Shown piece after piece: positions 29,643 to 37,327 of a stretch of 44,262 bases of DNA. This stretch comes from Syntrophomonadaceae bacterium (GTDB taxonomy: Bacteria > Bacillota > Syntrophomonadia > Syntrophomonadales > Syntrophomonadaceae), in NCBI GenBank assembly GCA_028706315.1, contig JAQWBP010000002.1, positions 1 through 44,262 on the forward strand, given 5' to 3'. The position numbers and the translations under genes are program-made. Every line of letters starts with the position of its first letter. Positions within the stretch are counted from its first letter, which is position 1. Below the pieces are notes generated by a model. It saw only the letters and a program-made list of their open reading frames with translations. It was not told where the DNA came from and ran no database searches.

Positions 29643-29855
29643 TTAGTCTTCCCACAATTTTTCTGCCAGCTTAGTTATTTTCTCTTTGCGTTCCAGGGTA
29701 GCCCTGGTATCAATGACCCACTCGTTATTATGGTATACCAGTACATCTCCTTCTCGGGCTTGTTCCGGGACTAGCTGGCGATCAATCTTTTGTATTTTGT
29801 CTTCAATTTCTAAAATAGCATATTGACCTTCAAATCGGTCCAGGATAGCTATCAT
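29643..29855 (-). CDS. DUF3006 domain protein
   Basis: 70 residues from ATG 29855 (GGGAGGAA five bases upstream): MIAILDRFEGQYAILEIEDK, then a small beta-barrel and a charged C-terminal helix ERKEKITKLAEKLWED. The DUF3006 family is often found right after ComEC-like metallo-beta-lactamase genes, exactly as here. Function unknown. Confidence 0.85.
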   Translation of the reverse strand: MIAILDRFEGQYAILEIEDKIQKIDRQLVPEQAREGDVLVYHNNEWVIDTRATLERKEKITKLAEKLWED

Positions 29856-29868
29856 ATTGATTCCTCCC

Positions 29869-30960
29869 TTATGGGTTACAACTGCCACAGGGTGTATATC
29901 CCTGATTTACAGCCTCTTCGCAGGTAGCAAAATAGACCCGGTTGTTCTCTGCTGGCAAATTCGCGCAATCAGTCCGATGAAATTTTTTGGAGTTTTTATT
30001 ACCGATATAATAAACACTGTTATCCTTATTAGATACAACCTTATCCTGAGCCGCAATTTTATTACCTGTAGTTATATTATAATTATTACCATCAGTACTA
30101 ATTATAATAGTTCCATCACTATCTGTCCGGTAAACCTCTAGACCTGACAGCGCTGCCAGAGTTTCTTTATGTGGATGGCCATAATCGTTACCGGATCCAC
30201 ACATTATTACTGCATATTCCGGGGAAACTGCCTGTAAGAAATTTGAGCTGGTACTACTGACGCTACCATGATGCCCTACCTTGAGTACATCCGCCTTTAA
30301 GTCTGTACCATTGGCTAGCATTTCTTTCTCAGATAGCTTTTCTGCATCTCCAGTAAACAGAAAAGAAGCAGAACCATAAGTTAGTTTAATTACCGCACTA
30401 TAATTATTTAGTCCCTCGTAATCTTCTCCCACCGGAGCAATAAAACTAGCCTCACCATCTGCTAAAGAAATTTTGACTCCTGCTACTGCAGTACTAATTT
30501 TTAAGCCTTTATTGCTGATAGCCTCCAGCAAATTTTCAAATGACCTGCTGGTGTGAGTTACCCGGGGCAGATATATTTTTTCTACCGGAATACTTTCAAT
30601 TACCTTGACCAGACCCCCTATATGATCAGAATGCGGATGAGTCCCCACGACAAAATGCAGTTTATCTATACCTTGTGACTTGATATAGTTAACCACCTTT
30701 TCTCCCTGATCTCTTTCCCCCGCATCAATCAGCATATTTTGCCCACCAGGGGTTTCAATTAATATAGAATCTCCCTGCCCTACATCAATAAAATGAACCT
30801 TAAGCTCTCCGGTGTCATTATTAACATCTTTATGCCCGATAGTAGGCGCTAGATCCATCTGTTCCACCTGCTGCCCTGATTGGTCTCCGGAACTACAACC
30901 AGCCAGCAAGAATAACATCGCCAGGAAGACAACGAATATTTTATGTATTCTTTGACGCAA
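29869..30960 (-). CDS. ComEC/Rec2-like metallo-beta-lactamase fold lipoprotein
   Basis: About 363 residues from a TTG at 30960 (GGAGG eight bases upstream); the longer frame to 31026 runs through that site. The N-terminus has a lipoprotein signal ending in LLAGCSSG. The MBL domain (about 45-280) has VGQGDSILIE and GTHPHSDHIGG (HxHxDH), and later GHHGS, as in extracellular ComEC-type nucleases. The last 50 residues (KFHRTDCANLPAENNRVYF...GYTPCGSC) form a small Cys/His zinc-like module often attached to nucleases. Probably a membrane-anchored DNA-degrading or uptake-related hydrolase. Confidence 0.88.
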   Translation of the reverse strand: MRQRIHKIFVVFLAMLFLLAGCSSGDQSGQQVEQMDLAPTIGHKDVNNDTGELKVHFIDVGQGDSILIETPGGQNMLIDAGERDQGEKVVNYIKSQGIDKLHFVVGTHPHSDHIGGLVKVIESIPVEKIYLPRVTHTSRSFENLLEAISNKGLKISTAVAGVKISLADGEASFIAPVGEDYEGLNNYSAVIKLTYGSASFLFTGDAEKLSEKEMLANGTDLKADVLKVGHHGSVSSTSSNFLQAVSPEYAVIMCGSGNDYGHPHKETLAALSGLEVYRTDSDGTIIISTDGNNYNITTGNKIAAQDKVVSNKDNSVYYIGNKNSKKFHRTDCANLPAENNRVYFATCEEAVNQGYTPCGSCNP

Positions 30961-31039
30961 AACTATAACCTCCTGTAGTAAAAATTTTAAATAAAGCCGA
31001 CCCCAGAATAGTAACATAGTCACCACCTTTAGCCAACCT

Positions 31040-31250
31040 GTTTGAATGCATAAATATGGAGAGCGACGTTAGCGGAGCATGGTAGAAACACCCTGTGAAG
31101 GCGCAGCGGCGGAAGGGGGCGAGCGACACGGACGTCGTGAGCGGGCAGTTGAACATGGACGTGAATCTGCCCGGTACCCCTGGAGCCGCAAGACAAGCAG
31201 ATGGTGTTTCCCATGCGGAGATTGGAGCCGGAATATTTGTGCATTCAAAC
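31040..31250 (+). ncRNA. Candidate 211-nt structured RNA, class not identified
   Basis: A GC-rich block in AT-rich surroundings, closed by an 18-bp stem (31040-31057 / 31233-31250) with one G-U wobble that works only on the plus strand. Inside are nested pairs: GCATGG (31077-31082)/CCATGC (31211-31216), AAACACC (31086-31092)/GGTGTTT (31203-31209), GCGGC (31106-31110)/GCCGC (31185-31189), GGGG (31115-31118)/CCCC (31177-31180). There are two hairpins, CACG/CGTG (31127-31139) and CGGGCAG/CTGCCCG (31142-31173). Both loops carry GGACGT, whose ACGT is self-complementary and could kiss. Frames on either strand read as low-quality protein. The overall shape recalls raiA-like or other large structured RNAs, but I cannot assign it. 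No clear promoter or terminator. Confidence 0.65.
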
Positions 31251-31349
31251 TAACGCCAGATAACTATGCATGGTAATCAATATTATATAACTTATATGAA
31301 AGCATTTTCTTTTTCCGGCGTAAGAATAATAAAAGGAGGGAAACTAATC

Positions 31350-33308
31350 GTGAGTTATTTTCAAAGGCATAAGAGACGGTCGATGTTACTGGCTATCCCG
31401 GCAGGATTAATATTAACTGCCTTTGTAGCCGTATTTGCTTTTGCTCCTACTAATTCTTATAACGCCGCTCCCCAGAAACCATTTACTAACCTCCCGGTGG
31501 TCGGTTCTATGGAAAACCTAAAGCAACTTTTACAAGAAGTAAAAAACTACGAAAATGATGTAGTTGTAGAAGACTCAGTACAACTAGAAAAGACCAAGGA
31601 GGCAAATGTTCGGCAAAGTTCTGATTTTTCGGAAACTAATGTCCAGGTAAGCGGCGTTGATGAAGCTGATCTGGTAAAAACGGATGGCAATTATATTTAC
31701 AAGGTAAACCAGGCTAAGGTCATAATCATAAAAGCCAAACCAGCTGAACAGATGCAGGTGGTTTCCCGGATAAATTTTGCTAACGATTTCAGGGCTCAGG
31801 AACTCCATCTGTACGGTAATTACCTGGTAGCGATCGGAACTTCTTCATTTTCGCCCCCTGCTAGGCTTCGTTCGATGAATAAAATGAAAGCTAATATTTA
31901 TCCTCCCCCCCACTATAACCTGAAGAAAACCAAAGCCATAGTCTATAATATTGAAAATAGGAACCAGCCAGAAAAAATAAGAGAAGTAGAATTAGACGGC
32001 AAGTACTTGTCATCACGCCGCATTAATTCATCACTATATTTAGTATCTAATAAGCCAATTAACTATTACCAGCTCGAAGATGATAGTATGCTGCTTCCTT
32101 CTTATCGCGATACCGCTTCTGGTAGTGAAATAAAACGGGTGGGTTGTGAAAACATACGTTATTTCCCAGATAAGATTTATCCAGCCTATATTATGATAGC
32201 GGGATTTGATATAGAAAAACCGGAAAAAGCTGCGGATATTCAAACTTATCTCGGCAATGGAGAAAATATTTATACCTCAACTAAAAATCTATACGTGGCC
32301 GTAAGCGGCTATCAGCAAATGCCCGTAGTCATCCAGGAACAATTTAATGGAGTGGCACCGGAAATAGGCCAGACTTTCATTTATAAATTTGCTCTCAGCA
32401 AGGGGCAAGTATACTATACGGGCAAAGGTGCCGTGCCCGGTACTATTTTAAATCAGTTTTCTATGGACGAACACCAGAACTATTTTCGTATCGCCACTAC
32501 TAGTGGAGATATCTGGCGTAATGACAGGAATACTTCCCAAAACAATGTTTATATTATGGATAAGGATTTAACTATTACCGGAAAACTAGAAAATATTGCT
32601 CCTGGTGAAAAGATTTATGCAACCCGGTTCATGGGGGATCGAGCTTATATGGTAACTTTCCGGCAGGTGGATCCGTTCTTCGTTATCGATCTGGCTAATC
32701 CGGTGAAACCTCAAATCCTCGGAAAACTGAAAATACCCGGCTATAGTGACTATCTGCATCCTTACGATGCTAATCACATAATTGGATTTGGTAAGGACAC
32801 AATAGAAGATAAGGGATGGAATGGAGAGCCGCAGGCTTATGATCAGGGCATGAAGGTAGCCCTTTTTGACGTAACTGATGTTAATAATCCGGTAGAAATG
32901 TATAAAACAGTTATTGGCACCCGGGGTACTAACTCAGAACTTCTGCAAAACCATAAAGCACTCTTATTTTCCCGGGAGAAAAATCTACTCGCTTTTCCCG
33001 TGACAGTAATGGAGCAACAAAGCAGTGGAAATTCGAATTCGAACATTCCTAAGCGCGGCTCCTTCGCTTTCCAGGGAGCTTACGTCTATAATCTAGACTT
33101 GGTTAATGGCTTTCAGCTTAAAGGCCGCATAACCCATCTGACCCCGGATGATTACCAGCGGGCCGGAGATTACTGGCATTACAGTGATAAAAATGTAGAG
33201 CGAATATTATATAGCGGTGCTACCTTGTATACTCTTTCTCGCAATACTATAAAAGCTCATACATTACCTGATTTAAAATATATTAATTCCGTAAATCTTA
33301 GTCTTTAA
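31350..33308 (+). CDS. Secreted or membrane-anchored beta-propeller domain protein
   Basis: 652 residues from GTG 31350, nine bases after GGAGGG; a longer frame to 31266 is less likely. An N-terminal basic stretch and one hydrophobic helix (about 10-35) give a signal anchor. The body has NVQVSGVDEADLVKTDGNYIYKV, the mark of the secreted beta-propeller family (PF09826), and repeated blades such as GDRAYMVTFRQVDPFFVIDL. Role unknown; family members are extracellular and sometimes called Rax2-like or copper-amine-oxidase-associated. It lies about 100 bases after the structured RNA. Confidence 0.87.
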   Translation: MSYFQRHKRRSMLLAIPAGLILTAFVAVFAFAPTNSYNAAPQKPFTNLPVVGSMENLKQLLQEVKNYENDVVVEDSVQLEKTKEANVRQSSDFSETNVQVSGVDEADLVKTDGNYIYKVNQAKVIIIKAKPAEQMQVVSRINFANDFRAQELHLYGNYLVAIGTSSFSPPARLRSMNKMKANIYPPPHYNLKKTKAIVYNIENRNQPEKIREVELDGKYLSSRRINSSLYLVSNKPINYYQLEDDSMLLPSYRDTASGSEIKRVGCENIRYFPDKIYPAYIMIAGFDIEKPEKAADIQTYLGNGENIYTSTKNLYVAVSGYQQMPVVIQEQFNGVAPEIGQTFIYKFALSKGQVYYTGKGAVPGTILNQFSMDEHQNYFRIATTSGDIWRNDRNTSQNNVYIMDKDLTITGKLENIAPGEKIYATRFMGDRAYMVTFRQVDPFFVIDLANPVKPQILGKLKIPGYSDYLHPYDANHIIGFGKDTIEDKGWNGEPQAYDQGMKVALFDVTDVNNPVEMYKTVIGTRGTNSELLQNHKALLFSREKNLLAFPVTVMEQQSSGNSNSNIPKRGSFAFQGAYVYNLDLVNGFQLKGRITHLTPDDYQRAGDYWHYSDKNVERILYSGATLYTLSRNTIKAHTLPDLKYINSVNLSL

Positions 33309-37187: not shown

Positions 37188-37327
37188 AATTCCACCTCAA
37201 ATATATAAATTTTAATTCCCCTGCAAAAAGTTATACAACGTAGTTTAGGAGGTTCCGCAGTGGAGTCAATTTTTAATCATGAATTTTGGTGGAAATACTT
37301 TCGTATTTCTCTGCTGGTTGATTTAAT
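37188..37327 (-). other. 140-bp gap where hisH is expected
   Basis: In most related operons hisH lies between hisB and hisA. Here the gap has no coding content like HisH. On the minus strand it holds the hairpin GAAATAC-GAAA-GTATTTC (37292-37309). Confidence 0.7.

Follow-up and report, generated by a model that had tools for sequence, protein, structure and literature searches.

The interval 31040-31250 of the window (the whole 44,262-nucleotide stretch of DNA analyzed here, from a 2.5-Mb Syntrophomonadaceae genome) forms the inner part of an eroded MITE of ~270 bp at about 31010-31278, and we consider it probable (roughly 0.8) that this MITE carries an RNA fold of the TwoAYGGAY type. TwoAYGGAY (RF01731) has been without an assigned function since 2010. 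This known orphan RNA class appears to behave as cargo of mobile DNA, which is not stated in the literature searched, as far as its passages on the class go, and the question shifts from which gene is controlled to what a transposon gains by carrying an RNA of this type.

Genomic context of the window copy

The interval sits in the gap separating two divergent genes, which a preliminary description of the sequence had called ComEC-like and propeller genes. The second name agrees with Pfam (PF09826), whereas the first gene encodes a metallo-beta-lactamase with an Ada-like zinc domain, in which Pfam finds no ComEC competence domain. The genes and elements of this region, together with a related element found downstream, are as follows:

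29869 to about 30975, minus strand: metallo-beta-lactamase gene with a C-terminal Ada-like zinc domain
31010-31278, plus strand: whole MITE copy, eroded, its left outer end extrapolated
31070-31223, plus strand: match to the full RF01731 TwoAYGGAY model (1-168), 32.1 bits
about 31350-33308, plus strand: beta-propeller gene (PF09826, Pfam)
37214-37267, minus strand: empty 54-bp shell of the same MITE, outer repeats only and no RNA interior, with the 6-bp duplication AATTTT

A promoter-like site was looked for inside the window copy and none was found. Elsewhere in the window, a DUF3006 gene adjoins the metallo-beta-lactamase gene with its Ada-type zinc domain (29643-30975, minus strand), and a tandem glycine riboswitch lies at 376-561 on the minus strand.

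The interval belongs to a mobile element

Similarity among the copies in the same genome reaches ~30 bp past 31040-31250 on both sides. The genome holds ~20 copies of the MITE; a 231-bp query returned 31 matching places, 13 of them with at least 92% coverage and at least 90% identity. Young copies are 271 bp long and have outer inverted repeats of the TGATTCCnCTGC type. When the window copy (31037-31278) is compared with one of these (L034, bases 28-271 of 271), the alignment is 88.5%. Its left outer repeat is no longer recognizable, its right outer end is weak and no target duplication is left; it is an old copy of the MITE.

Exact flanking duplications of 5-8 bp, mostly 6-7 bp, were found at 36 of 83 candidate TIR pairs, a list that includes some spurious pairings. 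When the flanks were shuffled in 1000 re-pairings, the mean was 1.8 duplications and the maximum 8. All but three of the 36 (33) begin with A and finish with T. Only 2 of about 85 examined copies fall inside a mechanical ORF, and the elements have the traits of MITEs in being ~270 bp long, multi-copy, intergenic and without coding capacity. The preliminary description held that a mobile-element copy number would suggest a MITE instead of a folded RNA. Such a copy number is indeed present in this genome; however, since the interior of the MITE is a conserved structured RNA, the MITE reading is no alternative to a folded RNA.

Shell and interior of the MITE can occur apart. Around an AT-rich interior of 232 bp the same outer ends recur in about eleven copies, and elsewhere they are joined directly to form empty shells of 55-57 bp. 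Among the matches listed in eight genomes searched by end pattern, no convincing TIR pair enclosing a transposase was found.

The 232-bp AT-rich elements form a second MITE family in the same genome (L115-L124), with TGATTCCnCTGC ends and an unrelated interior. Mini-elements of 47-52 nt (L041-L046, L083, L076), of the form YACCCnnnGGGCAC...ACTGATGTTCGC...CACCATTAAGG, lie embedded in MITE copies at a number of fixed positions, without target duplication.

The interior is a conserved fold

On the plus strand, the interior is a rod that leads into a three-way junction bearing two hairpins with AYGGAY loops. Its parts are:

31040-31057, plus strand: 5' arm of stem P1 and of the inner inverted repeat, GTTTGAATGCATAAATAT
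31077-31082, plus strand: 5' strand of P2, GCATGG, pairing with 31211-31216; A-U to C-G changes in relatives
31085-31096, plus strand: 5' strand of P3/P4, GAAACACC followed by CTGT, pairing with 31203-31210 and 31197-31200
31106-31118, plus strand: 5' strand of P5, GCGGC...AGGGG, leading to the three-way junction and pairing with 31185-31189 and 31177-31181
31123-31138, plus strand: hairpin 1, GCGAC-ACGGAC-GTCGT, with the first AYGGAY loop
31143-31172, plus strand: hairpin 2, GGGCAG...CTGCCC, with tandem G-A pairs and the loop ATGGAC, the second AYGGAY loop
31173-31176, plus strand: junction strand GGTA, present as GGTA or GGTG in most relatives of the phylum
31233-31250, plus strand: 3' arm of P1 and of the inner inverted repeat, ATATTTGTGCATTCAAAC

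The 18-bp closing stem (31040-31057 with 31233-31250), with its single T-G wobble on the plus strand, and the nested stems of the preliminary description are present in the sequence. The twin hairpins that it reported also stand (loops ACGGAC at 31128-31133 and ATGGAC at 31155-31160), but the palindromic ACGT to which it drew attention is not conserved; AAGGAG, ACGGAT and AGGAT are seen among relatives. For the same reason we rejected kissing of the two loops through ACGT.

The predicted plus-strand RNA fold of 31040-31250 has an energy of -95.9 kcal/mol (z -6.6), and 0 of 200 shuffled sequences did as well; the minus strand reaches -76.9 kcal/mol (z -3.6). Covariation was examined in 34 aligned copies that share ~75-96% identity with the window copy and come from seven genomes within the order. 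The fold comprises 41 pairs, with 93.4% of cells paired and both-sided changes at 23 pairs, and 0 of 500 shuffles matched either the paired-cell fraction or the count of both-sided changes. The covariation score was 0.292, compared with 0.103 after shuffling and at most 0.055 with the partners slid. Several pairs run through three or four pair types; one pair of P4 is UA, GC, CG or AU among relatives. The interior is thus a base-paired fold with compensatory changes, and the preliminary description's claim of a folded RNA is backed both by this covariation across genera and by an excess of wobble pairs on the plus strand (see below). Outside the pairs, conservation falls on the junction strands and on the two A(N)GGAN hairpin loops; GGA is kept in 232 of 246 hairpin loops of relatives.

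Relationship to TwoAYGGAY RNA

The likeness to TwoAYGGAY consists of two hairpins with AYGGAY loops, tandem G-A pairs, a three-way junction, a long external stem and a match over the full length of the model. The score of the window copy (32.1 bits, E 0.0026 for 401 bases) lies below the gathering cut-off of 43, so we rank it as a divergent relative of TwoAYGGAY that stays under the threshold, not as a formal member. All copies in the same genome likewise score below the Rfam cut-off, in which they differ from the class as defined; RF01731 gave 0 matches across the whole genome at E 0.001, and an Rfam scan at the gathering threshold missed TwoAYGGAY, the relationship being recognized only via distant relatives. 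These were caught with R1, a covariance model built from the fold in this analysis, and they reach 43-71 bits with RF01731 (L236 70.9, L230 61.2, L239 54.5). One of them, L239, belongs to the window's own taxonomic family; its R1 score is 100.8 bits. In divergent relatives the matches of the two models share coordinates.

The preliminary description had named raiA-like RNA as a candidate. A large nested structure, and nothing more, would speak for raiA, HEARO, ROOL or OLE RNA. In a search against Rfam at E up to 10, TwoAYGGAY was the sole relevant match; none of these four classes in Rfam 15 matched the element at that threshold, and the 40 loci with divergent relatives gave no gathering-level match to them either, and we therefore consider a membership in any of them exceedingly improbable.

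In 2010 TwoAYGGAY was described, in the parts of the source that treat it, as a probable RNA, not of the cis-regulatory kind, listed for human gut, gamma-Proteobacteria and Clostridiales (Weinberg, 2010; PMC2864571). The passages that deal with TwoAYGGAY by name in the papers searched contain no description of mobility, whereas here the fold lies inside a MITE and occurs in tens of copies.

Distribution and differing ends

Searched with R1, 63 genomes of the order yielded 35 carriers of the fold, and an even sampling of the phylum yielded 46 carriers among 398 genomes (37 of 267 genera). The copies of the phylum carriers are dispersed, mostly several per genome. Rod, junction and twin GGA loops are all retained in divergent copies, whose outer stem has another sequence in each genus. 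In two families, f54 and f67, the same RNA core is flanked by ends of the CAGACTGTAGACAAAG type; 6 of 10 examined copies of these families are flanked on both sides by near-identical 20-31-bp hairpins, which resemble intrinsic terminators and constitute a long target duplication. One RNA core is thus found with two or more sets of ends that look unrelated, TGATTCCnCTGC and CAGACTGTAGACAAAG.

The loci of these two families that are situated between duplicated terminator hairpins (L203, L205, L206, L207, L214, L238) suggest a terminator-targeting transposase that makes duplications of 20-31 bp. The duplication length of the IS1202 group, 16-28 bp, fits the terminator-inserted copies (PMC10132070); we do not claim an IS1202-type origin for them, because their ends start with CAG, not TGT. 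In a further genome (G235), many places of 65 nt match only the twin-hairpin core (model 46-112), which indicates that this core also occurs in other frames.

Selection on RNA or on DNA

Strand bias can distinguish between the two, as a DNA hairpin would have about as many G-T as A-C mismatches, whereas an RNA transcribed off one strand would have more G-U than A-C. On the plus strand, rows below 85% likeness had 72 G-U against 34 A-C (p 0.0003), a count in which two of the three alignments (A3 and A4) were fitted to a model that leans to G-U; the unfitted alignment (A2) alone gave 12 G-U and 5 A-C, which is not significant. Changes private to single copies within a genome broke 18 pairs, compared with 28.8 expected at random. 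This constraint comes mostly from genome G020 and is lacking in the freshly amplified set of genome G006, where 10 pairs were broken against 9.6 at random, implying that the moving lineage is constrained and that single young copies can decay. The covariation and the wobble bias together support selection acting on the plus-strand RNA fold in lineages that are still moving. Orientation relative to neighboring genes is random (~83 copies; upstream gene on the same strand in 40, on the opposite strand in 41), so in about half of the cases transcription by the host would run along the minus strand. A cis-regulatory leader was rejected on account of this randomness, which, together with the lack of a promoter-like site in the window copy, also speaks against a riboswitch role.

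Two explanations confine the role of the fold to the element. The fold might act solely as DNA, with transposition requiring it in cruciform or single-strand hairpin form and the RNA irrelevant; mobility, inverted repeats, target duplications and random gene orientation agree with this, and the outer stem P1 has 13 G-U and 13 A-C, as DNA repeats would give. We nevertheless think this unlikely, because the G-U to A-C excess of the interior is 2:1 on one strand, the 57-bp shells and the 232-bp MITE, which have the same ends, move without the fold, and the interior persists while the ends differ between families. Alternatively, the RNA could serve the element: it might, for instance, recruit the transposase or regulate it, or protect inserted copies against transcription. 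A fold constrained in moving lineages, with single young G006 copies decaying at the random rate, and the absence of a gene orientation bias would be compatible with such a service, but it too appears improbable: RNA-less 57-bp shells and the 232-bp MITE share the ends, several with target duplications, and the RNA is therefore not required for movement.

CsrA as a possible partner

Both loops have the form C-A(N)GGAN-G, that of CsrA/RsmE sites, as in CsrB and RsmZ. The usual neighbor of CsrA is FliW. RsmY and TwoAYGGAY share the Rfam clan CL00106. The Csr/Rsm RNAs (CsrB, RsmY, RsmZ) resemble the present fold in having GGA in hairpin loops closed by C-G; they differ in that here there are two sites per molecule, the copies are dispersed and mobile, and the host is without CsrA. 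In this genome (G000, 99.9% complete) CsrA (PF02599) and FliW (PF02623) are both absent, as they are from four others (G019, G029, G031, G033). CsrA was therefore rejected as the partner in this host, barring a gene in an assembly gap. With one exception, the loops of the copies in this genome remain GGA without CsrA. Across the phylum, 32 of 34 carriers (94%) have CsrA, compared with 36 of 46 sampled non-carriers (p 0.06), and within the order, among genomes at least 90% complete, the figures are 12 of 15 and 9 of 11. CsrA may be the partner in many other hosts.

It is feasible that the RNA is simply a CsrA-sequestering small RNA that happens to be multi-copy. The loop form with its conserved GGA and the presence of CsrA in nearly all phylum carriers favor this, as does a published analysis which, in the part that concerns TwoAYGGAY, reports strong matches to the CsrA motif and predicts CsrA binding (Gardner and Eldai, 2014; PMC4333381). 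On balance we find it doubtful, as near-identical young copies that keep GGA occur in this genome, and copies in the four others, with neither CsrA nor FliW, and as carriers within the order have CsrA no more often than non-carriers and the phylum difference stands at p 0.06.

Returning to a MITE with a TwoAYGGAY-type interior, we propose that a transposase, not found here, would act in trans on the TGATTCCnCTGC outer repeats to move the element, producing the A...T duplications of 6-7 bp. The interior RNA would then be transcribed from the landing site and offer its twin loops to a partner that binds RNA. For most carrier species a CsrA dimer is a plausible candidate for this role, and the dispersed copies would then be small sponges or tethers, a step that we put forward tentatively. 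In the present genome, without CsrA and FliW, the copy would be a passenger, or another partner would be used. A wider and rather speculative reading is that TwoAYGGAY is a phylum-wide superfamily of selfish RNAs on interchangeable transposon ends (TGATTCC with 6-7-bp duplications in Syntrophomonadales; CAGACTGTAGACAAAG with 20-31-bp terminator-hairpin duplications in two other families) that titrates host CsrA where present. The CsrA prediction can be tested cleanly in nature, on carriers that have CsrA and carriers that lack it; should the copies bind this protein, transposition would adjust a global regulator through dosage.

Comparison with other mobile repeats

Like QMITE, RUP and BOX, the element is non-autonomous and intergenic, with inverted repeats and target duplications; unlike them, its interior is a conserved RNA family that is phylum-wide and has different end types. 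Foldback transcripts have been described for bacterial MITEs (PMC10969869). The bcr1-bcr3 repeats of the Bacillus cereus group are MITE-like and often lie within UTRs (PMC3446304), and the mobility of bcr1 has been linked to a TTTAT motif (PMC6542083); bcr1-type repeats resemble the present element in being short, non-coding, dispersed and mobile. Within the same genus, two copies (L157, L165) lie in opposite orientation within about 500 bp of each other, a paired arrangement.
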